A DNA stretch of 41,419 nt from NCBI GenBank assembly GCA_944387055.1, contig CALXDL010000064.1, positions 1 through 41,419 of the forward strand. The letters run 5' to 3'. The translations under genes were made by a program, and so were the position numbers. The first letter of the stretch is position 1. Every line of letters starts with the position of its first letter. This document shows, piece after piece, positions 4,458-40,892 of this stretch. The DNA comes from an uncultured Oscillospiraceae bacterium (lineage in GTDB: Bacteria > Bacillota > Clostridia > Oscillospirales > Oscillospiraceae). Below the pieces are notes generated by a model. That model was not told the origin of the DNA and searched no databases. It saw nothing but the letters and a program-made list of their open reading frames with translations.

Positions 4458-4500
4458 CGGAAGCAGGAGCGGCCCAGATATCCACGCTCGACATATATGG

Positions 4501-4530
4501 AAAAATGACCGCCCACGGGCGGTCATTTTT
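4501..4530. terminator. Bidirectional terminator between PBP and molybdenum operon
   Basis: The stem AAAAATGACCGCC / GGCGGTCATTTTT with a tiny loop has T runs on both strands. It lies between the ends of the convergent PBP gene and mogA and probably serves both. Confidence 0.9.
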
Positions 4531-4563
4531 TTGACGTTTTTTATTTTGAGACGGACAGGAGGA

Positions 4564-5061
4564 CTAGCAGGAGGCTCCGGCACAGTCAGCAGGGTGGCCG
4601 GAGAGCATGTCCAGACCGTGCGAGAGGGCGGGGAGGACTGCTTCTAGATTCTCCTTTGCAGCTTTCGGAGATCCGGGAAGGTTCACGATGAGCGTGCGCC
4701 TCCGGATACCTGCCTGTGCACGGGAGAGCATCGCCCGAGGAGTGATCTGCAGGGAGGCATAGCGCATGGCCTCCGGGATACCGGGAGCCATGCGTTCACA
4801 CACTGCCAGGGTGGCTTCCGGCGTCACATCCCGAGGGGAAAATCCGGTGCCTCCAGTGGTGACGATCAGGTCCACCTGCTCATGGTCGGACCACTGCCGC
4901 AGGGCGGCTTCGATCTGGGACTGCTCATCGGGGACGATGGCGGTCTCCACCACCCCGTATCCTGCGCCTTCCAACAGTTCTCTCACCAGAGGACCGGCCC
5001 CATCGGGCCGTTCTCCACGGGAACTGCGGTCGCTGACGGTCAGTACAGCGGCTTTGAACAT
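4564..5061 (-). CDS. mogA: Molybdopterin adenylyltransferase, MogA/MoaB family
   Basis: A 165-residue MoCF-fold protein that adenylylates molybdopterin before metal insertion. Visible family motifs are TVSDRSSRGE near the N-terminus, the molybdopterin-binding TTGGTGFSPRDVTPE (about 68-82), and VNLPGSPKA (about 125-133). The ATG has GGAGGG upstream. It is the last gene of the molybdenum operon, 15 bp after modC. The C-terminus ends in CAGASC, adding two cysteines outside the normal fold. MogA and MoaB cannot be separated by sequence alone here. Confidence 0.92.
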   Translation of the reverse strand: MFKAAVLTVSDRSSRGERPDGAGPLVRELLEGAGYGVVETAIVPDEQSQIEAALRQWSDHEQVDLIVTTGGTGFSPRDVTPEATLAVCERMAPGIPEAMRYASLQITPRAMLSRAQAGIRRRTLIVNLPGSPKAAKENLEAVLPALSHGLDMLSGHPADCAGASC

Positions 5062-5076
5062 GATCCTAACCCTCCT

Positions 5077-6123
5077 TCAAGTCTCCAGCAGCAGGATGTC
5101 CTGGGGCTGGATGGTGACTGTGAGCTGCGTGTGGCCGGGAAGAGCCTGCCAGGCGTCCTTGCCCAGCTCCATACGCAGCAGCGGCGCGTCTTGCGGCGCA
5201 TCCTCAGGGCGGAGCAAGATCGTGATGGAGGATGCATCGGTCACCACGCGGACGACCCGGCAAGAAAAGCAGTTGGTGTCTCCCGGTACAGCGGGACGGA
5301 CATGACAGGCCCGGATACCGACCCGGCGGATACCGGCTGGGACCCGACGGCCGCAGGAAAGGGTCAGCCCCCAGGCGGGGAGTGAGACGTCGGTCTCACG
5401 GGGCATGGCATCTGCGTAATTCTGACAGCCCGACAGACGGGCGGCCGCCTCTGTACCGGGGGCGTGGAGCAGCTCTTCCGGTGTGGTCACCGGCTGGGAA
5501 CACCCTCGATCGATCACACAGACCCGGCGGCAGTTGCGGAACACCTCGTCTCGGTCGTGCGAGACCCACAGGATGGTCCCGGAGAAACGCTCCAGTGTCT
5601 CTGCCAGCTCGATCTCCAGCTGGGACTTGAGATAGCTGTCCAAGGCAGAGAAGGGCTCATCCAACAAGATGGCCTTGGGCTCGGCTGCCAGGATACGGGC
5701 CAGAGCACAGCGCTGCTGCTGCCCGCCGGAAAGCTGCCAGGGCCGCTGGTCCGCCACGCCCTCCAATTGGAAACGGCGGAGCGCCTCCGCCACGATCGCC
5801 TCCCGCTGCCTCCTATCGCGCACGGCCACCGCGATGTTCTGCCGTGTGGTCATATTGGGAAAGAGGGCGTATTGCTGGAAGAGGTAGCCCACTTGCCGAC
5901 GCTGCGGAGGCAGATCGATCTGAGCCGCGCTGTCGAAAAGGGTGACGCCATCCAGGACGATCTTCCCTTCATCCGGGGATAGGATGCCAGCGATGCAGCG
6001 CAGCGTCACGGATTTCCCGCAGCCAGAAGCGCCCAGCAGGGCCAATGTCTCCTGTTCTGCCTGGAAGCGGACGTCCAGTTGAAAACGCCCCATCCGTTTC
6101 CGGATATCCACGAAAAGCGCCAT
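5077..6123 (-). CDS. modC: Molybdate ABC transporter ATP-binding protein
   Basis: ATPase subunit of the ModABC molybdate importer, 348 residues. Walker A GASGCGKS (31-38), signature LSGGQQQR (131-138) and Walker B ILLDEP (152-157) are intact. The C-terminal ~90 residues look like a degenerate TOBE/MOP-type domain, usual in ModC for sensing oxyanion. The open frame extends to 6216, but the ATG at 6123 shares one base with the modB stop (TGATG), the normal start and a sign of translational coupling. Confidence 0.92.
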   Translation of the reverse strand: MALFVDIRKRMGRFQLDVRFQAEQETLALLGASGCGKSVTLRCIAGILSPDEGKIVLDGVTLFDSAAQIDLPPQRRQVGYLFQQYALFPNMTTRQNIAVAVRDRRQREAIVAEALRRFQLEGVADQRPWQLSGGQQQRCALARILAAEPKAILLDEPFSALDSYLKSQLEIELAETLERFSGTILWVSHDRDEVFRNCRRVCVIDRGCSQPVTTPEELLHAPGTEAAARLSGCQNYADAMPRETDVSLPAWGLTLSCGRRVPAGIRRVGIRACHVRPAVPGDTNCFSCRVVRVVTDASSITILLRPEDAPQDAPLLRMELGKDAWQALPGHTQLTVTIQPQDILLLET

Positions 6124-6797
6124 CAGCGTCGCCCTCCCCTCTGCCGCTGCCGGTCCTCCAGCAGGTTCACCGCCAACAGGAACAACGCTGAGAGCGCGAT
6201 GTTCACCAACACCCACCGCAGAGCGCCGGCGTCGTCATTGGTCCGCCAGAGCTGGTAGACGGTAGTGGAGATGGTAGCAGTGCGGCCAGGCGTATAACCC
6301 GCCACCATGGAGGTGGCGCCGTATTCACCCAGAGCGCGGGCGAAAGACAGTACAGCGCCCGCCAAGATGCCCTGGCGGCAGACGGGCATCTGGACTCTCC
6401 AGAAGATCCAGGTGTTGGACCGTCCCAGAGTGCGCCCGGCATCTGCGAGCGTGTGATCGAAGCTCTCGAACGCGCCGCGGGCAGTACGGTACATGAGTGG
6501 GAAGGATACCACCACTGTGGCGAAGATGGCAGACCACCAGGTCATCACCATCCGCACGCCGAACGTCTCCAGCACCCAGGCACCAAGAGGGCGCCTGGGG
6601 CTCAGCAGTACCAGCAACAGCCAGCCCACTACCGTGGGCGGGAGCACCAAGGGCAGCGTCAACACCACGTCCAGGACACCTTTCACCAGCCGGGGCAGGC
6701 GCGCGATGTAATATGCGGACAGGATGCCAAGGAAGAACACGACCACTGTGGCGATAGAAGCGATGCGCAGAGAATTAAATAGAGGATACCAGTCCAT
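6123..6797 (-). CDS. modB: Molybdate ABC transporter permease
   Basis: Inner-membrane channel subunit of the molybdate importer, 224 residues with about five or six membrane segments. The cytoplasmic EAA-like coupling loop is visible in the middle (DAGRTLGRSNTWIFWRV, then ALGEYGATSMVAG). The ATG at 6797 is preceded by AGGAGGT with 8-nt spacing. It lies 77 bp after modA and overlaps modC by one base. Confidence 0.93.
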   Translation of the reverse strand: MDWYPLFNSLRIASIATVVVFFLGILSAYYIARLPRLVKGVLDVVLTLPLVLPPTVVGWLLLVLLSPRRPLGAWVLETFGVRMVMTWWSAIFATVVVSFPLMYRTARGAFESFDHTLADAGRTLGRSNTWIFWRVQMPVCRQGILAGAVLSFARALGEYGATSMVAGYTPGRTATISTTVYQLWRTNDDAGALRWVLVNIALSALFLLAVNLLEDRQRQRGGRR

Positions 6798-6874
6798 CAG
6801 CGAAGACCTCCTGAACGGAGAGATGAGCGGGAACTGCCACAGAGCGCCCGTCTGCTATGCCAGGGGGTCACATT

Positions 6875-7699
6875 TCAGCTCAGGGGCGTGAAACCGACGC
6901 TCTCGAACACAGTCTTGGCATCTTCGGAGGAGAGGTGATCCAGGAAAGCCTGTGCCGCATCGGGATGCTGGGAAGCGGCCAGCACAGAGGCGGGATAGAT
7001 GACCTGCCCGCACATATCGGCGGTGGCCTCATCTACCACCGCCAGTCCGGCGGAGAAAGCGTCGGTGGCATAGATGATGCCGCAGTCCACCACACCCTCG
7101 CTGACGTGGGTCGTGACTTCTTTCACGTCAGAACCATAGGTCAGGCAGCCGGCGATGGCGGCCTCATCCAGGCCATAGTAGGAGAATATCTTCTGCGTAT
7201 ACTGCCCCACAGGCACATCGCTGTTCCCGATGGCCAGCAGGACACTGCCGCTGTCCAGCAGCTGGGCCAGCTGGTCGAAGTCCTCGATCCCCTTGGGGTT
7301 CCCCTCCGGCACGGCCAGGGTCACTTTGTTCTCCAGCAGATCCAAGCGGCTGCCCTCCAGCAGGGCGCCCTCCTCATCCAGAGCGTCCATCTGCGTAGGG
7401 GCGGCGGAGATGAAGAGATCGCATACAGCTCCCTCCTGGATCTGCGTCAACAGATCGCCGGAGGAGGCATAGCTGGGGACGATGGTGACCTCCGGGGCGA
7501 CGGACGCATACTGCTCGATGATCTGATCCAGCGTCTCCGTCATGGAGGCAGCGGCGAAGACGGTGAGCTCCACCGGCTCGGCGGAGGTCTCTGTGACGCC
7601 GCCGGAGGCATCCTGGCCGTCAGCGGCATCATTACTGCCGCAAGCAGTCAGGGACAGGGCCAGGGAAAGGGCTAGGAGCAGAGAGAGGGCCTTTTTCAT
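6875..7699 (-). CDS. modA: Molybdate-binding lipoprotein
   Basis: Periplasmic-type solute-binding protein for molybdate (274 residues), membrane-anchored in a Gram-positive. The signal peptide MKKALSLLLALSLALSLTAC carries the lipobox LTAC, with Cys20 as the lipidated residue. The ModA fold begins with ELTVFAAASMTETLDQI, including the Ser of the oxyanion site. The open frame runs to 7933, but only the ATG at 7699 gives a signal peptide, and it has GGAAGGA upstream. A hairpin separates it from the moeA-like gene. Confidence 0.94.
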   Translation of the reverse strand: MKKALSLLLALSLALSLTACGSNDAADGQDASGGVTETSAEPVELTVFAAASMTETLDQIIEQYASVAPEVTIVPSYASSGDLLTQIQEGAVCDLFISAAPTQMDALDEEGALLEGSRLDLLENKVTLAVPEGNPKGIEDFDQLAQLLDSGSVLLAIGNSDVPVGQYTQKIFSYYGLDEAAIAGCLTYGSDVKEVTTHVSEGVVDCGIIYATDAFSAGLAVVDEATADMCGQVIYPASVLAASQHPDAAQAFLDHLSSEDAKTVFESVGFTPLS

Positions 7700-7803
7700 A
7701 TGGGATCCTTCCTTTCTTGATGATATACGCCGTTCCGCGGAGGACGGCACTGGAACGATGGGATACGTGATATCTATGTAAGGATAACGAAAAGGGAAGA
7801 CCA

Positions 7804-7828
7804 GCGCCGGTCTCACCGGCACCGGCGC
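7804..7828 (-). terminator. Intra-operon hairpin after the moeA-like gene
   Basis: On the minus strand GCGCCGGT / ACCGGCGC (8 bp, 9-nt loop) begins 4 bp after the moeA-like stop and is followed by TGGTCTTCCCTTTT. It could be a partial terminator or an mRNA-stability hairpin that sets different expression for the moa and mod halves of the operon. No clear promoter was found in the 100 bp before modA. Confidence 0.5.
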
Positions 7829-7832
7829 GGCT

Positions 7833-8852
7833 CTATTTACCAAAGGGACATGTGGGCCAGTGGCAGGGGTCGCAGCCCAGACACAGTCCGCCCTCGCCCA
7901 GGGCCACGATATCCGTTCGCGTGACAGGAACATCCGCTGCTACCCAAGGCAGGACCAAGTCGAAGATCGTGGCACCGGCGTACATGACGCAGCCAGGGAG
8001 GCCCATCACAGGGGTGCCGTCTTCGAAGTATCCCAGCAGGAACATGGCACCGGGCAGCACCGGAGCGCCGTAAGTGACGATCTGAGCACCGCTGAGCCGG
8101 ATGCCGCCGGGCGTATCGTCGTCTGGATCCACGCTCATGCCGCCAGTGCAGAGGACGATCTCCGCGCCGGTGGCCCTGGCTTGTGCCACGGCATTGGCCA
8201 CGTTCTCTGCCCCATCCCCGGAGTAGGTGACAGAGCGGGTCTCGATGCCGTAGGCCGCCAGCTTCTCCATCACCACCGGGGTTAAGGTATCCTGGATCAG
8301 GCCCTTTTTCACTTCGCTGCCGGTGGCCACGATGGCAGCGGTCTTCCGTTTCCAAGGCAGCAGCTCCAGCAGCGGCGCATCGCCCGCTGCAGCCTCTGCG
8401 GCCGTCAACTTCTCCTCTGCGATGATCAGGGGGATCACCCGCATCCCCGCCAGCTTGTCGCCTTTGCGGACGGCAGTGCCGCCCTTGCGGGTGGCGATCA
8501 TCAGTTCGTCGATGGAGTTCACGGCGATAAGCCGTTCTGAACGGACCCGGAAGAGCCCATCACAGGCTGCTCTCAGCTCGATCTTGCCCTCACTGACGGC
8601 GCTGCGGTCCATGTATTCGTTCCTGCACAGCGCATAGAGCCGTTCCGCCGCTTCGTCCTCGTGGAGCATGCCGGGCACCATCTCCCAGACATACAGGTGC
8701 TCTTTGCCCATGGAGAGGAGCACGGGGATATCCTCCGGCTGGACCACGTGGCCCTTACGGAACCGCGCGCCCTTATAGCGATCCTTGATGATCTGGGTCA
8801 GGTCATGACAGAGCACATGGCCCACCGCGTCTTCGGTCCGGATGCATTTCAT
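7833..8852 (-). CDS. MoeA-like molybdopterin-binding protein
   Basis: A 339-residue protein with an N-terminal region typical of clostridial MoeA-like proteins (HVLCHDLTQI, RKGHVV) and a C-terminal MoCF domain containing ATGSEVKKG and CTGGMSVDPDDDTP, the molybdopterin/adenylate-binding motifs. It is shorter than true MoeA (about 400 residues). Proteins of this class occur next to molybdenum hydroxylase genes. The C-terminus ends in a Cys-rich string, CLGCDPCHWPTCPFGK, with four cysteines that may bind a metal or cofactor (inference). The start ATG overlaps the MOSC stop (ATGA) and has GGAGGTGG upstream. A longer open frame upstream is a shadow of other genes. Confidence 0.85.
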   Translation of the reverse strand: MKCIRTEDAVGHVLCHDLTQIIKDRYKGARFRKGHVVQPEDIPVLLSMGKEHLYVWEMVPGMLHEDEAAERLYALCRNEYMDRSAVSEGKIELRAACDGLFRVRSERLIAVNSIDELMIATRKGGTAVRKGDKLAGMRVIPLIIAEEKLTAAEAAAGDAPLLELLPWKRKTAAIVATGSEVKKGLIQDTLTPVVMEKLAAYGIETRSVTYSGDGAENVANAVAQARATGAEIVLCTGGMSVDPDDDTPGGIRLSGAQIVTYGAPVLPGAMFLLGYFEDGTPVMGLPGCVMYAGATIFDLVLPWVAADVPVTRTDIVALGEGGLCLGCDPCHWPTCPFGK

Positions 8853-9292
8853 GCGCCCACCTCCAGGATATCGATCTCGTCGCCCGGGCGGACGGTGCCC
8901 TCCCGGACCACCACGGCGAAGATGCCCTCTGTGGGCATGACGCACTTGCCAACGGCTTCCTTGATGGCGCAGTCGTTGTGACACGCCTTGCCGATCTGGG
9001 TCACCGCCACCTCTGCCTCGCCGATGCGCAGGCGAGAGCCGATGGGCAAGGCTTTCAGATCGATACCGGCAGTGTCGATGTTCTCTGCGAACACGCCGGC
9101 GGGCAGTGGGATATGGCAGGCAGAACGCATGGTGTCGATGCTCTCTTCGGCCAAAAGGCTGACTTGCCGGTGCCAATCGCCGGCGTGGGCATCGCCCACG
9201 ATACCGTGGCGGAGCTTCAGATAGACCTCTGGGACAGGGCGCTTCACCTCGCCCTTGCGTACGCTGATATTGACAGACACCACCTTCGCCAT
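8849..9292 (-). CDS. MOSC-domain protein
   Basis: A 147-residue single-domain MOSC protein. MOSC domains occur in molybdenum-cofactor sulfurases and carrier proteins, and here the context suggests cofactor handling or sulfuration for molybdenum hydroxylases. Visible family features are GIVGDAHAGDWHRQVSLL (about 30-47), the typical GCH-like cysteine replaced by IGKACHNDC (about 100-108), and FAVVVREGTVRPGDEI near the end. A GTG at 9301 is possible, but the ATG at 9292 is better spaced from AGGAGG. It overlaps the moeA-like gene by 4 bp. Confidence 0.88.
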   Translation of the reverse strand: MAKVVSVNISVRKGEVKRPVPEVYLKLRHGIVGDAHAGDWHRQVSLLAEESIDTMRSACHIPLPAGVFAENIDTAGIDLKALPIGSRLRIGEAEVAVTQIGKACHNDCAIKEAVGKCVMPTEGIFAVVVREGTVRPGDEIDILEVGA

Positions 9293-9297
9293 GGGCG

Positions 9298-9786
9298 TCA
9301 CACCTCCTCTGCGGTGTAGTCACCGCTCTTGCCGCCGGATTTGCGCAGCAGGCGGATGTTGGTGATACACATGTCCCGCTGGATGGCCTTACACATGTCG
9401 TAGATGGTCAGGGCCGCCGCGCTGACAGCGGTGAGGGACTCCATCTCCACACCGGTGGGACCGTCGCAGGTCACAGCGGCGCGGATCTCCACCATACAGG
9501 GCTGGTCCGACAGGGAAAACGTCAGATCGATGCCCGTCAAGGGGAGGGGATGGCACATGGGGATCAGCTCCCAGGTCCGTTTGGCAGCCTGGATGCCCGC
9601 CACCTGGGCCACTGCCAGGACGTCTCCTTTTTTCAGTGTGCCGCGCCGGATGGCCTCCAGCGTCTCCGGCTCCAGATGCACTTCTCCGGCGGCCACCGCC
9701 CGCCGGTGCGTGACGGCCTTCTCCGTCACATCCACCATCCGGGCCCGCCCCTGTCCATTGAAATGGGTCAACGCCTCCATACTCAT
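9298..9786 (-). CDS. moaC: Cyclic pyranopterin monophosphate synthase
   Basis: Second enzyme of molybdopterin synthesis, converting the MoaA product to cPMP. It has 162 residues, normal for the family. Hallmarks are [12 protein letters not shown] near the N-terminus, PMCHPL with the catalytic His (about 74-79), [25 protein letters not shown] (about 110-134) and the Lys-containing AIQRDM. The ATG at 9786 overlaps the moaA stop (ATGA). The longer open frame upstream is not coding. Confidence 0.95.
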
Positions 9787-10727
9787 CCTCCGATCTGATC
9801 CATCGTCCTGGGCGTGTCGCTCCGGCGCTCCGCCAAGTGGTGCTTGGCGGGCTTGCATGCGATGCCCTGGCGGATGGCCGCCTCCAGCGCTTCGCCGTGG
9901 AGCCCCCGCAGCGGCAGCTCTTCCCGGCTGTGGAGACAGCTTTTGAGCTTGCCGTCCGCCGTCACTCGGATGCGGCGGCAGTCGGCGCAAAAATCGTGGC
10001 TCACAGGAGTGATGAGCCCCACCGTGCCCTTGGCGCCAGGCAGACGGTATCGCCGGGCCACGCCCTGAGGGGCGATCGGCTCCAGATCTGTCACTCGAGC
10101 CAGCACCGTCTCCGCCGGGAGGAAGCGGTGCGTGTCCCACTCGGCACAGGGGCCCATGGGCATCAGTTCGATGAAGCGCATCTCCCAGGGATGCGTGCGG
10201 CTCAGGTCCGTGAGCGCCTCGATCTCATCATCGTTGAAACCGCCGATGAGGACGGTGTCGAACTTCAAGTCCCGGAAGCCGGCGGCCTCTGCGGCAGCGA
10301 TGCCCGCCCACACGTCGCACAGCCGCCCGCGGCGGGTCATGGCGGAGAAGCGCGCCGGCCGCAGGGTGTCCAGACTGATGTTCAGCCGGTCCACGCCGGC
10401 CTCCCGCAGGGGCGCCGCCAGTCCTGCCAGCAGGCTCCCGTTGGTGGTCAGACACAGCTCCTCTAGACCGGGGATGGCAGCCAGGCCCCGGCAGATATCC
10501 AGGATGCCCCGCCGGACCAGAGGTTCTCCGCCTGTCAAGCGGATCTTCTTCACACCACAGCGGACGGCCGCCCGACCGATCTCCACCAGCTCCTCCACGG
10601 AGAGGATGTCCCGGTGGTCCCGCTTGGGGACGCCCTCTTCCGGCATGCAGTAGCGGCAGCGGTAATTGCACAGATCCGTCACTGACAACCGCAGATAATC
10701 GATCGTACGGCCGCAGCCGTCCAGCAA
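9783..10727 (-). CDS. moaA: GTP 3',8-cyclase
   Basis: Radical SAM enzyme for the first step of molybdopterin synthesis, 314 residues. The SAM cluster motif is C20-x3-C24-x2-C27 (CNYRCRYC). The second 4Fe-4S site uses CADC plus a downstream Cys (KSCLHS). The C-terminus ends in the conserved Gly-Gly needed for activity. The start is TTG, about 8 nt after GGAGGGGG. It is the first gene of the operon, with a 5' leader of only about 45 nt, too short for a molybdenum-cofactor riboswitch. Confidence 0.95.
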
Positions 10728-31599: not shown

Positions 31600-33417
31600 T
31601 TGGGAGGATCGATGGCTCCGATCCAGACACTGCTGGATGGACTGACTGCCGTATTGGCGGCCCATCCCATGATCGAGATCGGATATATGTCCTTCGTCCG
31701 GTTCTTCTTCCCGGTGCTGGCAGTGGCGATCCTTTGGCGGGCCATCCGGTCCCTGCTGCAGATCCCTCACACACCGGAGACTTGGGGACAGCTGAGCCTT
31801 CCCAACGGCACACAGATCCCCCTGACCCATTGGGAGAACATCATCGGCCGCAGCAAGACAGCAGACGTGGAGCTGAACTATCCCAGCATCTCCCGCCAGC
31901 ACGCGGCCATCTGCCGGGGCGAGAAGGACCGCTGGACGGTCTATGACCTGGGCTCCAAGGGCGGTACGATGGTGAACGGACGAGCAGTGGACGGCTCCGC
32001 GCCTGTGGAGCTGGGAGATACCATCACGTTGGGTGGCGTGCCCCTGATCTTCCTGCCGCAGACCGTGGCGGAGCGGGAGGAGCTGGAGAAGCGCCGCCGG
32101 GCGGAACGGCCTGCGGCCATCTGGCCCTCGTTCCTTTGGCTGACCGTGTTCCAGATCCTCGCCTGCATCCAGCTCATCCTAGCTGCGGGGGAGGAGGCGT
32201 CCGCAGCGATCCCGCTGGCTTTCCTGGGCTTGACGGCACTGATGTGGACGTATTTCGCCATCCTGCGGGCGACCCGGTGCGTGGGGTTCGAGATGGAGAC
32301 GATCGCCTTTTTCCTATCGACCTTGTCTTTGTCAGTGACCGCTTCCAGCGCTCCGGGAAGTTTGTTCAAACAGTTCCTGGCCATCTTCTTGGGACTGATC
32401 TTGTTCGTGGTGCTGGGGGTATTCCTGCGGGATCTGAGTCGGGTCCAGCGGATCCGCTGGCTCATGGCCGCCGGTGCCATCGGCCTGCTGGGCATCACAC
32501 TGCTGCTGGGACAGTCGCGATATGGAGCAGTGAACTGGATCTCTATCGGGGGCATGTCGTTCCAACCATCTGAGATCGCGAAGATCTGCTATATCTTCGC
32601 CGGATCCGCCACGCTGGAGCGGCTGTTCCACAAACGGAACCTAGCGCTGTTCATCGTCCTGACAGGGATATGCATCGGCCTGCTGGGCCTCATGAGCGAC
32701 TTTGGTACGGCAGCGATCTTTTTCGTGACGTTCCTCGTGATCGCCTATCTCCGCTCCGGAGATTTCGCCACGCTTTCTCTCATCTGCGGCGCGGCGGTGT
32801 TCGGCGCGGGGATCGTCCTGAAGTTCAAGCCCTATATCCTCAGCCGTTTCGCCGCCTGGGGCCATGCGTGGGAGGCTGCCTCCGGCGCAGGCTATCAGCA
32901 GACCCGGACCATGTCCGCCGCCGCCTCTGGCGGCCTCTTGGGGATGGGAGCGGGGAACGGCTGGCTCCACAGAGTCGCTGCGGCCGATACCGACCTGGTG
33001 TTCGGCATGCTGTGTGAGGAGTGGGGACTGCTCATCGCGATGCTGGCGGTGGCTGCGATCATCACTTTGGCATGGTTCGCGGCCCGGGCCGTGCGGGTGG
33101 GCCGCTCCAGCTTTTATACCATCGCGGCCTGCGCTGCAGGGTCTCTGCTGGTCTTCCAGACCTGCTTGAACGTGTTCGGCTCTGTGGACCTCCTGCCCCT
33201 GACGGGCGTGACGTTCCCCTTCGTTTCCAACGGAGGGTCCGCGATGATGTCGGCCTGGGGCCTGCTGGCGTTCCTGAAAGCCACGGACACGCGGGAGAAT
33301 GCCAGCTTCGCCATCCGCCGGAGCCACCAGAGGCGGCTGACGGCATCGGCCCGGCGCCGGGTGGAGCCAGTGGGCGACCCCTTTGCCAGAGAGGAGGCGC
33401 GGGATGAAGAAGATTGA
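31600..33417 (+). CDS. FHA-domain fused SEDS protein (FtsW/RodA/SpoVE family)
   Basis: 605 residues. One membrane segment (about 30-50) precedes a forkhead-associated domain (about 65-150) with GRS (83-85), SRQH (98-101) and MVNG (124-127), the residues that bind phosphothreonine. A SEDS domain of about ten membrane segments follows (about 172-560), with the family's FQPSEIAK (about 325-332), FGTAAIFF and the C-terminal TFPFVSNGGSAMMSAWGLL. SEDS proteins polymerise peptidoglycan with a class B PBP, here encoded next. The FHA domain suggests control by Ser/Thr kinases. The start TTG follows AAAGGAGGG; the ATG at 31612 is an alternative. Confidence 0.93.
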   Translation: MGGSMAPIQTLLDGLTAVLAAHPMIEIGYMSFVRFFFPVLAVAILWRAIRSLLQIPHTPETWGQLSLPNGTQIPLTHWENIIGRSKTADVELNYPSISRQHAAICRGEKDRWTVYDLGSKGGTMVNGRAVDGSAPVELGDTITLGGVPLIFLPQTVAEREELEKRRRAERPAAIWPSFLWLTVFQILACIQLILAAGEEASAAIPLAFLGLTALMWTYFAILRATRCVGFEMETIAFFLSTLSLSVTASSAPGSLFKQFLAIFLGLILFVVLGVFLRDLSRVQRIRWLMAAGAIGLLGITLLLGQSRYGAVNWISIGGMSFQPSEIAKICYIFAGSATLERLFHKRNLALFIVLTGICIGLLGLMSDFGTAAIFFVTFLVIAYLRSGDFATLSLICGAAVFGAGIVLKFKPYILSRFAAWGHAWEAASGAGYQQTRTMSAAASGGLLGMGAGNGWLHRVAAADTDLVFGMLCEEWGLLIAMLAVAAIITLAWFAARAVRVGRSSFYTIAACAAGSLLVFQTCLNVFGSVDLLPLTGVTFPFVSNGGSAMMSAWGLLAFLKATDTRENASFAIRRSHQRRLTASARRRVEPVGDPFAREEARDEED

Positions 33418-35276: not shown

Positions 35277-35960
35277 ATGAAGAGAGACCGGACCATACGA
35301 TTGGTGACGTTCGACTTGGATGGCACGATGCTGGATGACGAATGGGCCCATGCAGAGGCGAACCGCAGGATCAGTGAACGTCTGGGGCTGGACGACACCC
35401 TCCTGGGGAAGATGACGGGTTATCCAGTCCGCCTTCGCTGGAGGGAACTCTGCCGGGCGGCCGGTGTGGAGGCAGACATCGAATCGCTGGCACAGGAGCA
35501 TTTCCGCATCACGGCGGAACTGGTGGAGGAGGCGGGCGTGCCTGCCGCTCCAGGCCTGATGGCGACGATGCAGGCGCTGAAGGAGCAGGGATATATCGTG
35601 GCGGTGGTCTCCTCCTCGGACGGCCCGTTCGTCAAAGCGATGACAGACCGCTTGGGCGTGAGCGCCTACATCGACCACTTCGTCTCCCAGGAACAGGTAG
35701 AGGAGCTCAAGCCGGCACCGGACATCTACTGGAAGGCCCAAGGACTGGCGGGGGTCCGGCCGGAACAGTCCATCGGAATCGAGGACAGTGAGCCTGGCTG
35801 TCTGGCGCTCCGGCGTGCCGGGATGTACACCATCGGATTCCGGGACGAAGGACGCAACCAGCAAGTGCTGGAAGATGTAGATACATGGATCGACCGGATG
35901 GAGGAACTGTTTCCCATCCTGGAGAGATTGCAGGGGAGAGACCTCGTTTCCACCCCTTGA
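35277..35960 (+). CDS. HAD-superfamily hydrolase (beta-phosphoglucomutase-like)
   Basis: A 227-residue phosphatase or phosphomutase. Motif I is FDLDGTMLDDEW (nucleophile and acid/base Asp near 13 and 15), motif II is VVSSSD, motif III is the Lys of KPAPDIY, and motif IV is IEDSEPG. A helical cap domain lies between motifs I and II, as in the PGMB subfamily. The substrate cannot be told. It has its own promoter and a terminator directly after. Confidence 0.9.
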   Translation: MKRDRTIRLVTFDLDGTMLDDEWAHAEANRRISERLGLDDTLLGKMTGYPVRLRWRELCRAAGVEADIESLAQEHFRITAELVEEAGVPAAPGLMATMQALKEQGYIVAVVSSSDGPFVKAMTDRLGVSAYIDHFVSQEQVEELKPAPDIYWKAQGLAGVRPEQSIGIEDSEPGCLALRRAGMYTIGFRDEGRNQQVLEDVDTWIDRMEELFPILERLQGRDLVSTP

Positions 35961-35963
35961 GAG

Positions 35964-35985
35964 AGGACCGGCCAGAGCCGGTCCT
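35964..35985 (+). terminator. Terminator after the HAD gene
   Basis: AGGACCGGC / GCCGGTCCT (9 bp), 4-nt loop, then a run of T. Confidence 0.9.
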
Positions 35986-36226
35986 TTTTTTGCCGACAAA
36001 ACAGCTGCCAATAGAAAACTTTTTCGTGGGAGCCTGCGTCTATAGGGTAGATCAGATCCAGGTCTTCCTGCGGCCTATCCTGCTGCATCAGGAGAAGCTG
36101 CAAGAGCGTCGTATACATATCCGAAGGACCTGGAGGATCGAGAGGGGGCCCCTGCCAAGACATGCCGGTGTGGATGATGGGCGTGTCCACGGATCGGCCG
36201 TCTCGAGGCCGAAAGGAGGAGCGGAT

Positions 36227-37144
36227 ATGTGCGCATATCGTGATCGACCGGAACAAGCTGCAGGGGAGCGCTGCGTCCGGCGCCGTCCGGCACGCAGCCG
36301 GTCTGCCCGGAGGAAACGGAGGTTCCCCCTGTCTTTGCTGCTGGTGGGGATCTTGCTGTTGGGTGGGAACGCTCTTTTGGGCAGTGGTTCCGCTATTTGG
36401 GACATGGAGCTGGGGGAAGGGCAGCAGTCTGAGGTCTCCGAACCAGCCGGCGGCATGGATCCGGGGTCTGAGACTGGTCAGGAACTTGCCCCGCCCACTG
36501 TGGACACGACACAAGAGGATGTGGATACGGAACCGGATGAGGATCGCAGCGAAGAGGCTGCAGCAGAGCAGGACCTGCGTTTGGTGAACAGGGACCATCC
36601 GCTGCCGGAGGACCTTCTCGCCCCTGAGCTGACGTACCTTCGGAATGGACAGGCCATCGACACCCGTGTCTATCCAGACCTGCAGGCGATGATGGATGCC
36701 GCCCGCGCGGAAGGATATCATCCGCTGATCTGCTCGTCTTTCCGTACATGGGACAAGCAGGAGCAGCTGTTCGAGCGGAAAGTCCGTTCCTACCAGGACC
36801 AGGGATATGACAGAGAGGAAGCCGAGGAGATGGCAGCCGTGTGGGTGGCCCGGCCAGGCACCAGCGAACATCAGTTGGGAGTGGCGGTGGATATCGTCTC
36901 TGAGGAATATCAGATCCTCGACGAAGGACAAGAGGACACACCGCTCCAACAGTGGCTGATGGAACATTGCTGGGAGTACGGGTTCATCCTCCGCTATCCA
37001 GTGGGGAGCCAGGAAATCACAGGTGTGGGTTATGAGCCCTGGCATTATCGTTATGTGGGGAAAGAGGCGGCACTGGCCATCCGGGACCAGGGCGTTTGCC
37101 TGGAGGAATATCTGGCTCAGATGGAGATGGACGCAGCAGACTGA
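36227..37144 (+). CDS. D-alanyl-D-alanine carboxypeptidase, VanY family
   Basis: A 305-residue membrane-anchored peptidase that trims D-Ala from peptidoglycan stems. A basic N-terminus and one membrane segment (about 33-53) lead to an acidic linker (60-115) and the M15B domain. Zinc ligands are H215 and D222 in SEHQLGVAVD, and H273 in PWHYRYVG; SSFRTWDKQ (170-178) is also typical. The start at 36227 is chosen for its GAAAGGAGGAG; the frame stays open upstream to 35885 across the HAD gene end, but that part is not protein-like. No vancomycin-resistance genes are nearby, so it is a housekeeping type. Confidence 0.92.
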   Translation: MCAYRDRPEQAAGERCVRRRPARSRSARRKRRFPLSLLLVGILLLGGNALLGSGSAIWDMELGEGQQSEVSEPAGGMDPGSETGQELAPPTVDTTQEDVDTEPDEDRSEEAAAEQDLRLVNRDHPLPEDLLAPELTYLRNGQAIDTRVYPDLQAMMDAARAEGYHPLICSSFRTWDKQEQLFERKVRSYQDQGYDREEAEEMAAVWVARPGTSEHQLGVAVDIVSEEYQILDEGQEDTPLQQWLMEHCWEYGFILRYPVGSQEITGVGYEPWHYRYVGKEAALAIRDQGVCLEEYLAQMEMDAAD

Positions 37145-37309: not shown

Positions 37310-40300
37310 TTAGAACAGGCGCAGCTGCTGGGCTGGCCGTTCCCGGCGGGCAAGCGTCTCCCGGACCACGGAGGATGACAGGTCGGAAAGGAAGGGAGAG
37401 GGCGCGGGCCCGCAGGAGAGGATCAGCTCATCCCGGGCACGCGTCATGCCCACATAGAGGAGCCGGCGCTCCTCGGCTAGATCCGCAGAGGGATCCCCGC
37501 CCTCCAGGGGGAGGACACCGGCATCCAGGCCCGCTAGGAACACCACGGGGAATTCCGACCCTTTGGAGGCATGGAGCGTCATGAGGTGCACGGCGCCAGA
37601 TGCCCAGTTCCGGCCGGAAGCCCGCTGCAGGTCCGCCTCACGCCCCAGGGCGATCGTCTCCCACAGCGACTGGAAACTGCTGTGGAACACCGCGATATCC
37701 CGCAAGTGCTCCAATGCGGGCGTGGCTCCATAGGCCTCGCTCCAGCGCTCCACCAGCCTGCGCGGCTTCTCTTTGGATACCAGAGGGCGCCAATGCTCTG
37801 CCCGGACCAGCCAGTCCTCTGGGACGGCGCCGCCGGCTGCTGCCCCAGGGCTATCCTGCTGGAGCGCTTCCCGTACAGAGGTGATCTGGTCGTCCGTGCA
37901 GCCCCAGAGGAGACGCAACGCTGTCTCCAGTGCGGCCGTGTCAGCCGGTTCCGAGAGGGAGCGGAAGAACGCCAGCAGGCCCCGCACTTCCGGGGCGTCT
38001 ATGGATGCTTCCCGGCCGCTGACCACGCAAGGGATGTCATCATGCCGGAGACAGGACTCGATGGCCGTCAGCTGCCGGTGCGTACGGCACAGGACCGCGA
38101 TGTCGGAAAAGGCCCAGAGGGGCCGGCCATAGGCGAGATGCTGTGCCTCCAGCATGTCCACGCCGCCGGTCATGCGGCCGATCTCTTTTGCGATGGCCAC
38201 GGCCTCAGTGAAGCTGTCCTGGGCCTGCAGCAGACGCACGGGGGCACCGGAAGGACGGCGGGGGACGAGGATGCGCGCCTCCCCCGGGGCCCGGTCGATG
38301 ACGGACAGGGCCGCCTGGATGATCTCGGGCGTGGATCGGTAGTCCTCCTCCAGCCGGATAGTCCGGAGCCCAGGGAGATCCTCCGCGAGATGGCGGAAGA
38401 CCTCACCACAGGCGCCCCGGAAACCATAGATGGATTGGTCGCGATCGCCGATGACGAACAAGCTGCGTCCCCTCTGCGCCCAGGCCCGTACAAGGGCATA
38501 TTGGGTATCATCCACATCCTGGAACTCGTCCACCAAGATGTGGCGGAAGCTGCGGCGGCCCGTCGTATCCACGGTGAGCGCCTGGATCACCAGGTCGTCG
38601 AAGTCCAGGACACCCAGGGAACGCAGACGAGCACGATATGCCTCGTATAACGCAAGATCTAGGCCGATGGCCTCCGGTGAGGCACCATTTTTCACTCGTG
38701 AGATATCTTGGAGCAGCTTTTTCCCACTGCCCTTGCGCCCATGGGCGCGGAGCAGCGCTTCAGAGATATCCAGAGCATCACCTGGTGCGAGCAGGTGCGC
38801 GCCTTCCAAGAGACGGAGACAGATGGAATGGAACGTGCCGATGGTGACGGCAGATGCGGCGCGTTTCTTGCCGAGCCTCTGTTCCAGGCGAGAGCGCATC
38901 TCGCTGGCAGCCTGTCTGGTGAAGGTCACGGCGGTGATCTCCCCTGGCTTCACACCGCATGCTTCCACCAGCCAGGCGATGCGGGCGACCAGCGTCCGGG
39001 TCTTGCCGGTACCGGGGCCTGCGATGACGGCCACTGCGGACTCAGGCGCGGTGACCGCCGTTTCCTGAAGGGCATTGAGCGGTGTGTGGACCGGCGGCGC
39101 AGCCAATGGGGAGGAGGTCTTCTCCAACGTTGCGGCGGCCCGCTCCGTTCGGCGGAGCGGCTCTGCACGGAAGAGGGAGATCTGTCCGCTCAAGCGCTGG
39201 ATCTCGCCCGGTGCGAGGAGAGAGATGGTCCCATATTCTCCGTCGAATCCGGCCCGGCGCTCTACCTGACCCGCCCGCAGCCGGCGGATGCCCTCTGCTA
39301 CGCAGGGGCCGGCGATCCGCCGGATGTCTTCTTCCGGCACGTCCCGCAGGATGGAGAACTCTGGCCCGAGCGCCCGGAGCATCTGCTCATAGAGCGCCTG
39401 CGTCTTCTTCCCGGCAGCAGAGGCTCCGGTGGACGCGGCGATGACTTCCGGCAGGGGCGCCAGACTTTCGAAAGGCTTTGCCCCTGGGGGATGGAAGCCC
39501 ACCGGACGGTCTGCCAATATCTCCACGCGATGCTCCACACCGATGGTCAGCCGTTTTCCGCAGACGGGGCAGATGCCGCCGCGTGCCTCCGTCTCAGCCG
39601 GAGTGAGGCATACCCCGCAGTTGCGGTGGCCGTCCAGATGGTATTTCCCCTCCTCTGGGAAGAATTCCACTGTGCCCAGGAACCCATCGCCTGTGCGGAT
39701 CGCGTGTACGAGCTCCGGGTAAGAGAACCCGGTATCCAGCAGGTCGGCTTCCCGGCCCAATTTGGATGGGGAATGGGCGTCAGAATGCGAGACGAGCGTG
39801 AGGTGATCCAGAGCGGAGACGCGCCAGTTCATGGGAGGATCGGAAGAGAGGCCTGTCTCCACTGCGTGGATACAGCCGCTCAAGTCGCCGAAACATTCCT
39901 CTAAGGTATCGAATCCTGAGAAAGCGCCGAACAGGGAGAAATGCGGCGTCCAGATATGGGCAGGGATGAGTTCCGCGTCAGGGACGGCGGTGAGCGTCAG
40001 CTCCAGGAGGTCTCGGCTGTCCAATCCCAGGATGGGGCGGCCGTCAGAGCGGATGTTCCCGATGGCCTCCAGCCTGGCGGCGAGCTCGTCTGCAGCTTCC
40101 AACGAGGGCAGGAGGATGAGATGGTGGACCTTCCGCGTCTTGCCATGGCGCTTATAGATACAGCTGATCTCCCCGGTAATGACGAACCGTGGCGCCGGTC
40201 CAGGACCGTGCTCTGGGAGCCTCAGCTCCTCACGGAGCGCATAGACGCCTTCGCCGGCGGGGACGAGCTGCTCCTGCATCTCCGCCCGCCAGGCGGGGTG

Positions 40301-40429
40301 AGTGAAGTCCCCGGTGCCCAGCAGACGGATGCCTTTGCGGCTGGCCCACTGATCGAGATGAGGCAGGTCACACTCCCGGCTGGTGGCGCGGGAGAAGCGA
40401 GAGTGGATGTGCAGATCGGCGATGTACAA
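37310..40429 (-). CDS. Endonuclease Q-like PHP nuclease fused to UvrD-family helicase
   Basis: 1039 residues. Residues 1-420 form a PHP metallo-hydrolase: DLHIHS (5-10), GTGDFTHP (38-45), HSDAHS (215-220). A zinc knuckle follows with C271, C274, C287 and C290, and a segment ends in GFDGEYGTISL (394-404). This layout matches the TIGR00375/endonuclease Q family, which nicks DNA at deaminated bases in archaea and some bacteria. Residues 450-1035 are a superfamily 1 helicase: Walker A GPGTGKT (471-477), DEFQD (634-638), GDRDQSIYGFRG (661-672) and VGMTRARDE near the end. The start TTG follows GAGGAGG; an in-frame ATG at 40504 lies beyond a hairpin. The nuclease activity is inferred from the family. 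Confidence 0.88.
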   Translation of the reverse strand: MYIADLHIHSRFSRATSRECDLPHLDQWASRKGIRLLGTGDFTHPAWRAEMQEQLVPAGEGVYALREELRLPEHGPGPAPRFVITGEISCIYKRHGKTRKVHHLILLPSLEAADELAARLEAIGNIRSDGRPILGLDSRDLLELTLTAVPDAELIPAHIWTPHFSLFGAFSGFDTLEECFGDLSGCIHAVETGLSSDPPMNWRVSALDHLTLVSHSDAHSPSKLGREADLLDTGFSYPELVHAIRTGDGFLGTVEFFPEEGKYHLDGHRNCGVCLTPAETEARGGICPVCGKRLTIGVEHRVEILADRPVGFHPPGAKPFESLAPLPEVIAASTGASAAGKKTQALYEQMLRALGPEFSILRDVPEEDIRRIAGPCVAEGIRRLRAGQVERRAGFDGEYGTISLLAPGEIQRLSGQISLFRAEPLRRTERAAATLEKTSSPLAAPPVHTPLNALQETAVTAPESAVAVIAGPGTGKTRTLVARIAWLVEACGVKPGEITAVTFTRQAASEMRSRLEQRLGKKRAASAVTIGTFHSICLRLLEGAHLLAPGDALDISEALLRAHGRKGSGKKLLQDISRVKNGASPEAIGLDLALYEAYRARLRSLGVLDFDDLVIQALTVDTTGRRSFRHILVDEFQDVDDTQYALVRAWAQRGRSLFVIGDRDQSIYGFRGACGEVFRHLAEDLPGLRTIRLEEDYRSTPEIIQAALSVIDRAPGEARILVPRRPSGAPVRLLQAQDSFTEAVAIAKEIGRMTGGVDMLEAQHLAYGRPLWAFSDIAVLCRTHRQLTAIESCLRHDDIPCVVSGREASIDAPEVRGLLAFFRSLSEPADTAALETALRLLWGCTDDQITSVREALQQDSPGAAAGGAVPEDWLVRAEHWRPLVSKEKPRRLVERWSEAYGATPALEHLRDIAVFHSSFQSLWETIALGREADLQRASGRNWASGAVHLMTLHASKGSEFPVVFLAGLDAGVLPLEGGDPSADLAEERRLLYVGMTRARDELILSCGPAPSPFLSDLSSSVVRETLARRERPAQQLRLF

Positions 40430-40462
40430 AGCTGGTGCCTCCTCACATGGATAAAATAGAGA

Positions 40463-40490: not shown

Positions 40491-40508
40491 CAATGGCGGT
40501 CCATGGAC

Positions 40509-40892
40509 TCAGACCGACCGATCGTCCAGGTGTTCCTTGACGAACTGACGGAGCTTGGAGAACGTCTCGTCGCTCAGATCATGCTCGACCTTGCAGGCAT
40601 CCTCGGCAGCGGTCTCCGGAGAGACGCCCAACCAGGTGAAGAGCTTCGTAATGGTCTTATGACGGCTGTAGACGCGGCTGGCGATCTCCATCCCGTTGTC
40701 TGTCAGCGTGATATAGCCATCGGGGGCCATGGTGATATAGCCGTTCTCCCGCAGTTTCTTCATGGCGATGCTGACGCTAGGCTTGGAGTACCCCAGCTCG
40801 TTGACCACGTCGATGGAACGTACCATCCCGCGCCGTTCCTTGAGCATCAGGATAGACTCCAGATAGTCTTCCGCAGATTCATGGATCACCAC
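40509..40892 (-). CDS. DtxR/MntR-family metal-dependent regulator
   Basis: A 127-residue regulator with an N-terminal winged helix-turn-helix (about 5-65, VNELGYSKPSVSIAMKKL) and a metal-binding dimerisation domain, without the SH3 domain of longer members. Likely ligands are D9, E12, H78, C100, E103 and H104. D9/E12 resemble manganese-type MntR, while C100-x2-E103-H104 resembles iron-type DtxR. Its metal is therefore uncertain. The start is GTG (40892 or the next codon) after TGAGGTGA. It is divergent from a 37-codon ORF; the gap contains an ATGAT/ATCAT repeat and a GCAAGG/CCTTGC repeat that could be operators. Confidence 0.9.
   Translation of the reverse strand: MVIHESAEDYLESILMLKERRGMVRSIDVVNELGYSKPSVSIAMKKLRENGYITMAPDGYITLTDNGMEIASRVYSRHKTITKLFTWLGVSPETAAEDACKVEHDLSDETFSKLRQFVKEHLDDRSV

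Follow-up and report, generated by a model that had tools for sequence, protein, structure and literature searches.

The window analysed here is the whole 41,419-nt stretch of contig CALXDL010000064.1 (assembly GCA_944387055.1) from an uncultured Oscillospiraceae bacterium. Close to one end of it, on the minus strand, lies a gene in which an EndoQ-type nuclease and a UvrD/PcrA-like helicase of superfamily 1A (SF1A) are joined in one polypeptide. Our reading, to which we give a probability of roughly 0.47, is that the product is a chromosomal DNA repair enzyme in which a distinct EndoQ subfamily has been fused to a helicase of its own, and which would work by nicking, unwinding and holding on to the sliding clamp. 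A preliminary description of this DNA had already proposed an EndoQ-like nuclease and a UvrD helicase in a single protein, and this is borne out by one unbroken frame, by the sequence and fold matches of both halves and by the recurrence of the architecture in other phyla. Its interpretation as a whole is partly supported; two of the three outcomes that it named as refuting, an N-terminal match no better than generic PHP and a loss of the metal ligands, did not arise. Two clamp-like motifs, one at the junction of the halves and the other at the very C-terminus, were absent from that account and are new in this analysis. The coordinates of all these features are collected in Table 1.

The sequence comparisons were made with known structures and with 80 named relatives, the best 80 of at least 575 confirmed stretches, which were picked for their similarity to the fusion and are no measure of its frequency. 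Residues 4-409 align end to end with PfuEndoQ (E 4e-45 for 5zb8 and 2e-44 for 7k30) at ~31% identity, which makes the match one to EndoQ and not to a generic PHP domain. The motifs DLHIHS, HSDAHS and GFDGEYG, on which the EndoQ assignment had originally been based, are all found in the protein. The catalytic metal ligands are kept in all 80 relatives (78 of 78 with letters there, for the first motif), and D217 is aligned with an Asp of Pfu for which chain 7k30 has Asn. The equivalents of Pfu E76, H84, H139, E167, G169 and S171 are likewise unchanged in 80 of 80. In PfuEndoQ the changes E76A, H84A and H139A abolish activity, and G169 and S171 form, together with H139, a bar to normal bases (PMC8307549; the residue roles are drawn also from PMC4357722, and the papers cited here and below are used in excerpts). 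The zinc knuckle had been described as C271, C274, C287 and C290. Three of these residues hold in 80 of 80 relatives, but only 62 of 80 have a Cys at the position of C274, which is opposite a Lys in the PfuEndoQ alignment, and the four-Cys version was rejected for this reason. H268, which stands opposite a Cys of PfuEndoQ, takes its place, and zinc binding by an HCCC site (H268, C271, C287 and C290) is probable by analogy with Pfu.

A different way to see the protein would be as a general recombination or end-processing nuclease-helicase, in which the lesion specificity of EndoQ has been lost and the nuclease has become structure- or strand-specific. Pairings of a nuclease with a UvrD-type motor are common (AddAB, AdnAB and RecBCD appear in the Foldseek fold list of our model), and an identity to PfuEndoQ of just ~31% would fit with such a change. 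However, the equivalents of H139, G169 and S171, i.e., of the residues that keep normal bases out, are among those found in every relative. When the window protein is set against 11 other intact fusions, the EndoQ part is also much better conserved, at 57-70% identity, than the helicase part, at 39-48% (excluding an 80-residue helicase fragment of locus L046 at 66%), and Pfam finds no domain in the protein beyond these two. We therefore regard a loss of specificity as quite improbable.

From residue ~450 on the protein matches PcrA, UvrD and Rep, and Pfam, NCBIfam and the PDB sequences concur on an SF1A helicase of the UvrD/Rep type. Eleven helicase motif blocks were compared across the 80 relatives, and GKT, DE.QD, Q665, R671, Y697, R698, R782, H953, K956, G957 and R997 are identical in all relatives that have letters at these positions; motifs and fold are thus those of the UvrD/Rep superfamily, apart from R663 and D696 of the window protein, to which we return below. 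The PDB alignment stops at PcrA residue 621 of 724, with 31 residues of the fusion protein left, from which we conclude that the C-terminal extension of PcrA is missing. This extension is the part of PcrA that binds RNA polymerase. The EndoQ and helicase trees were both built from the window and 21 of the 80 relatives (the helicase tree is without L163, and L150 and L164 in it are identical). In the helicase tree, which is unrooted and was made by a quick method, a single branch parts 22 fusion helicases from 19 separate helicase rows of related genomes, with a value of 98 in the SH-like approximate likelihood ratio test (SH-aLRT). A further PcrA-like gene scoring above 790 bits is present in 15 of the 15 genomes searched, including that of the window.

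The helicase part is also matched by the GajB models of PADLOC (best 227.5 bits, E 7e-68), and an antiviral role has been suggested for bacterial EndoQ (PMC8307549). Along these lines, the gene might be a one-gene counterpart of Gabija, with EndoQ standing in for GajA and attacking phage DNA that contains uracil or odd bases. Yet the PcrA model scores higher on the same region (295.4 bits), so the GajB match looks like one to a generic UvrD, and the EndoQ part is matched by neither PADLOC nor PHROG. No relatives of the EndoQ part turned up among phage records and plasmids, nor did any of 15 pattern matches in IMG/VR prove to be a relative of the fusion. Those neighbours that could be identified, which is the case at a minority of loci, have metabolic, regulatory or repair functions. 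A phage, plasmid or defence gene is not supported by these results, and we find an anti-phage function very hard to credit.

The two pentapeptides QISLF and QLRLF follow the clamp-binding consensus, which is QL[S/D]LF or, more generally, QxxLF; the PolC of Bacillus subtilis, for example, ends in QLSLF (PMC12309361). Going by this consensus, both may bind DnaN. When residues were shuffled, 1.2 strict motifs were obtained at either site, against the 39 and 58 of Table 1, while the relaxed pattern, which was defined after the tails had been seen, gave 6.2 at the C-terminus and 6.9 at the junction. The relaxed motif is found at both sites in 68 of the 80 relatives, and 97 of the 99 strict QxxLF hits in these proteins fall at one of the two. 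Six rows (L063, L070, L087, L105, L109 and L132) were judged cut or frame-broken and are still counted within the 80; without them, the C-terminus has 58 strict and 74 relaxed motifs out of 74, and the junction 35 and 67. The strict form was found neither among the 30 C-terminal residues of the 19 separate helicase rows (18 of them different) nor among the final 22 of 26 EndoQ rows that have no helicase (one row is masked at its end). Archaeal EndoQ binds PCNA via a C-terminal PIP box, which is needed for its stimulation by the intact ring, and beta-clamp motifs have been noted in bacterial EndoQ (PMC4858679).

An AlphaFold2 model of the window protein, based on an alignment that took 54 of the 80 relatives, has a mean predicted local distance difference test value (pLDDT) of 86.4 and a predicted template modelling score (pTM) of 0.68. 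The pLDDT drops below 50 at residues 260-262, 416-447 (the linker) and 1030-1032. When the model was compared with the PDB by Foldseek, PcrA/UvrD structures ranked first. The best DNA complexes had a target template modelling score (TMt) of 0.70-0.74 and the other structures, DNA-bound or not, of 0.53-0.68, a spread that is not surprising in a motor one subdomain of which is mobile. A structure prediction had been suggested as a check of the EndoQ assignment, and here 5zb8 and 7k30 (the latter with dU DNA) gave TMt values of 0.85-0.87 over 420-424 columns. The E-values, the model and the fold match, taken together, exclude a chance match.

The minus-strand frame is unbroken from 40504 to 37310 and would encode 1064 aa if the ATG at 40504, 4 nt past the stop of the upstream MntR/DtxR-type gene, were used. 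We favour the TTG at 40429 because it is preceded by AGGAGG and because 9 of 14 related fusion-type frames have their first start codon at this very residue. The coordinates of the preliminary description (37310..40429) are upheld on the same grounds, the protein is most likely 1039 aa long, and its residues are numbered here from this TTG. That two neighbouring genes have been read as one by an accident of annotation or assembly has practically no chance of being true. There is indeed one locus, L168, where the parts are adjacent separate genes (3494-6820, minus strand; an EndoQ of 457 aa and a helicase of 634 aa that ends in QASLF), a split form of the fusion. But a single frame of more than 950 aa is found at 78 of the 80 named loci, and such frames recur in many genomes of the class and of the phylum; since these are independent fusions, the accident was rejected.

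Among 291 genomes of the class, 52 had a match of any kind (counted by hand). These comprised 24 with a stand-alone EndoQ of another type, 12 with unbroken fusions longer than 1000 aa, one with a frame cut by a contig end, two with a fusion-type EndoQ without helicase, one fragmented and 12 weak, with PHP only. Across 398 genomes of the phylum, the matches listed (the weakest are not among them) include 61 genomes with an identity of ~50% or higher, 46 of which have a frame of at least 950 aa, the counts again being made by hand and the presence of the helicase judged from frame length alone. The distribution of the fusion is patchy and extends to several phyla: the named relatives include, besides Bacillota, metagenome-assembled genomes labelled Gemmatimonadota, Myxococcales, Deltaproteobacteria, Desulfobacteraceae, KSB1, Fibrobacteres and Gastranaerophilales, and one Treponema. 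Homologues are also carried by cultured relatives such as Anaerostipes hominis (L110) and Neglectibacter timonensis (L059). In the EndoQ tree the non-Bacillota rows, with the exception of Treponema, are placed outside the Bacillota group, and mere mis-binning is therefore unlikely for most of them. The two Gemmatimonadota rows adjoin Bacillota in the helicase tree, and a transfer of the fusion between phyla is possible.

How could the two halves work together? In the repair enzyme that we propose, the EndoQ part would flip out a uracil, hypoxanthine or abasic site and nick 5' of it, leaving a 3'-OH, with the lesion on the 5'-phosphate side. The tethered 3'-5' helicase would then load at the nick on the undamaged strand and peel the lesion strand away from its 5' end, while the two clamp motifs would keep both enzymes attached to the sliding clamp, which is a dimer and offers two sites. 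A polymerase would extend the 3'-OH, and a flap nuclease and a ligase would finish. We infer the nicking from EndoQ and the polarity of the helicase from UvrD/PcrA; the coupling of nick and unwinding, and its direction, is pure conjecture. A 3'-5' motor placed on the nicked strand would run away from the lesion, and the two clamp contacts could serve to fix the orientation and to pass the 3'-OH on to the polymerase. A more ambitious version would have a single-protein, clamp-tethered pathway of incision and displacement, apart from base and nucleotide excision repair, in many Bacillota and several other phyla, with the two motifs gripping both sites of one DnaN dimer. We hold this to be rather doubtful. 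If it were true, nicking, peeling of the damaged strand and resynthesis would all take place on one clamp.

The same anatomy would also serve if the order of events were reversed, with the helicase opening the DNA behind the clamp or at forks and R-loops, and EndoQ nicking deaminated bases in the strand so exposed. PfuEndoQ does cut uracil and hypoxanthine in single strands (PMC11354406), and the clamp-like motifs would put the protein behind the fork. Nothing in the sequence, however, sets the order of the two activities, and the existence of helicase-less copies suggests that nicking can do without unwinding. We see this order as unlikely, if less so than a loss of EndoQ specificity.

Several observations weigh against the nick-unwind-clamp reading. 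The TIGR00375 profile, which had been named beforehand as a check on the nuclease half, is covered over nearly its full length, so that this part of the expectation held, but the score of 153.8 bits stays under the curated cut-off of 326.6. This cut-off (of an NCBIfam hypothetical equivalog) was reached in none of the 291 class genomes. We therefore treat the domain as a distinct EndoQ subfamily and have not filed it under TIGR00375. The helicase part is similarly far from the curated cut-offs of PcrA (295.4 against 911 bits), UvrD (264 against 1144) and Rep (279 against 951), by which it is none of the three. In its motif III/IV blocks the window protein has R663 (38441-38443) where 75 of 79 relatives with letters there have Pro, and D696 (38342-38344) where 78 of 79 have Asn. 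These two residues could weaken the motor of the window protein, and for this reason we hold our reading slightly lower. A 3'-5' motor might just as well set off from the nick the wrong way, the relaxed junction motif is missing in 7 of the 80 relatives, and the pTM of 0.68, together with the disordered linker, leaves the placement of the halves relative to each other unfixed in the model.

EndoQ copies of the same clade without a helicase (L044, L045 and others) tell in the same direction, as the helicase is then dispensable in some lineages, and L044 and L045 are also without the junction motif. In the EndoQ tree both are inside the fusion clade, on two separate branches, and the helicase has therefore probably been lost more than once. 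Among 13 further stretches from around short frames of this kind, one is the split locus L168, and two (L175 and L176, from two genomes) hold both a fused copy and one without helicase, of the same clade and within ~12 kb of each other. A distant 627-aa helicase of genome G243 (L150) was considered as the missing half of its helicase-less EndoQ and is not supported; it groups with the separate helicases on a very long branch, and its place is unsure. Genes of the uracil-DNA glycosylase (UDG) superfamily are found in 56 of 56 genomes, so that uracil repair need not depend on the fusion enzyme. The UDG-superfamily match in the genome of the window (G000:C29:6805-7236) has a stop-to-stop frame of 426 aa around it; those listed for the other genomes are shorter. 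Endonuclease V (EndoV) was detected in one of the 56 genomes, which belongs to the 24 that have the other EndoQ type; it was found in none of the 15 with a fusion-type EndoQ and in none of the 17 that have neither type. There is no sign that EndoQ replaces EndoV, which is rare with or without it and speaks neither for nor against a link.

The gene neighbourhoods cut both ways: the repair-type neighbours at some loci favour our reading, but they occur at a small minority of loci. Clustering of neighbours at 95 loci, not de-duplicated (L036 and L071 are the same contig, and L038/L080, L042/L103 and L035/L115 are likewise pairs whose contigs are equal in length), revealed no general operon partner. 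The largest cluster was that of ABC-type ATPases (17 of 95 loci), followed by yaaA at seven, with L036 and L071 both counted. Gene calling relied on a crude rule, the longest frame, which errs in GC-rich DNA and mis-called the neighbours in the window, so these counts are rough lower bounds. An endonuclease III gene (nth) lies 9 nt downstream of the L069 fusion, and the helicase-less EndoQ of L044 also has endonuclease III next to it; upstream of L169 is a related glycosylase that stays under its cut-offs. RecG, RadC and topoisomerase III are upstream of L108, L082 and L033, respectively. The peroxide-stress gene YaaA lies directly upstream at five distinct loci from few lineages (L034, L036, on the contig shared with L071, L075, L078 and L100), three of them checked with hidden Markov models (HMMs). 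At L171, L172, L173 and L177 a helicase-less EndoQ is found two genes upstream of a thymidylate-synthase-like gene, HMM-confirmed as ThyX at L171 only and recognized by similar first residues at the other three.

Table 1. Positions in the window of the fusion gene, its domains and motifs, and the features immediately upstream
Feature	Coordinates	Strand	Remarks
EndoQ-UvrD fusion gene	37310..40429	-	1039 aa (most likely), TTG start
EndoQ-type nuclease domain, residues 1-410	39200..40429	-	5zb8 E 4e-45; TIGR00375 under cut-off; 5zb8/7k30 TMt 0.85-0.87
PHP metal motif D5-L-H7-I-H9	40403..40417	-	D, H, H in 78/80 relatives; other 2 cut by contig ends
Metal motif S216-D217-A218-H219	39773..39784	-	S, D, H in 80/80 relatives
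Probable zinc site H268, C271, C287, C290	39560..39628	-	all four in 80/80 relatives
Junction motif QISLF (416-420), end of EndoQ part, start of disordered linker	39170..39184	-	strict QxxLF in 39/80, relaxed in 73/80 relatives
Disordered linker, residues 421-447	39089..39169	-	pLDDT < 50 over 416-447; poorly conserved
SF1A UvrD/PcrA-like helicase, residues 448-1025	37355..39088	-	sequence profiles, motifs, tree, fold; without PcrA C-terminal extension
Walker A AGPGTGKT (470-477)	38999..39022	-	GKT in 79/79 relatives with letters there
Walker B / motif II DEFQD (634-638)	38516..38530	-	D, E, Q, D in 79/79 relatives with letters there
C-terminal motif QLRLF (1035-1039), last five residues	37313..37327	-	strict in 58/80, relaxed in 75/80 relatives
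AGGAGG ribosome-binding site	40438..40443	-	8 nt upstream of TTG at 40429, read directly
MntR/DtxR-type regulator, upstream	40509..40892	-	profile matches; ends 79 nt before TTG

The identified neighbours of the fusion gene in the window itself are ordinary genes. The MntR/DtxR-type regulator is absent from the 25 largest neighbour clusters of the related loci. On the other side, and convergent with the fusion gene, is a VanY-type D-Ala-D-Ala carboxypeptidase (35885-37144, plus strand) that scores under the cut-offs of the resistance-type VanY models. Further away, an FHA domain and a cell-shape domain of the FtsW/RodA/SpoVE type share one frame (31600-33417, plus strand), and ABC transporter and solute-binding genes lie beside MoaC and molybdopterin-binding genes (5077-10140, minus strand), probably a cluster for molybdate uptake and cofactor. 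A second EndoQ was not found in this genome, which is 85% complete.

As far as the accessible parts of the open-access literature on EndoQ, PHP-UvrD fusions and TIGR00375/COG1379 go, the EndoQ-helicase fusion is not described there; a mention in the papers on the EndoQ structure or on Bacillus pumilus EndoQ is possible. The architecture is probably already on record in databases without a function, and the fusion proteins are, we presume, carried there simply as UvrD helicases. In the discovery paper, the processing of the EndoQ nick was left open, the models in a figure legend being strand displacement by a polymerase plus Fen1, or an unnamed helicase after cuts by EndoQ and EndoV (PMC4357722). 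With a bacterial EndoQ that brings along a helicase and two clamp-like motifs, this question can be put to the test directly, using one purified protein and DnaN. If active, the enzyme would be a candidate for hypoxanthine repair in the genomes where no EndoV was found (55 of 56), other hypoxanthine enzymes not having been searched for.

Compared with known systems, the fusion has the whole fold of PfuEndoQ (5zb8, 7k30), with its PHP ligands, zinc domain and base-excluding residues, and, as in archaeal EndoQ, its EndoQ part ends in a clamp-binding-like motif. It differs from PfuEndoQ in the low identity (~31%), in one zinc Cys that has become His and in the linker and helicase that take the place of a free C-terminus. 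An EndoQ from B. pumilus has been reported to be active (PMC6202378). The stand-alone EndoQ of the other type, with a first motif like DLHVHIGRS (L003-L026, in 24 of the 291 class genomes), belongs to the same family and scores similarly against PfuEndoQ (157 bits for the window, against 169 and 160 for two tested members). It is nevertheless only 27-30% identical to the window domain (six measured), and the final 22 residues are free of a clamp motif in all 24 rows, one of them masked there; no helicase was found at six longer loci of this type (L047-L052). With PcrA, UvrD and Rep (1pjr, 2is6, 1uaa) the helicase shares motifs and overall fold, but it is far under their equivalog cut-offs, forms a separate group in the tree and has a nuclease attached, and in place of the last ~100 residues of PcrA it ends in a clamp-binding-like motif. 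The pairing of a UvrD-type motor with a nuclease is also that of Gabija GajB, AddAB and RecBCD, to which the match is weaker and whose nucleases differ from EndoQ. Gabija is, moreover, defined by a GajA partner gene next to GajB, whereas the fusion gene is flanked here by an MntR-type regulator and a VanY-type peptidase, and PADLOC is blank on the EndoQ part. With QISLF at the start of the disordered linker and QLRLF at the C-terminus, the fusion protein conforms twice to the pentapeptide that is typical of beta-clamp partners.

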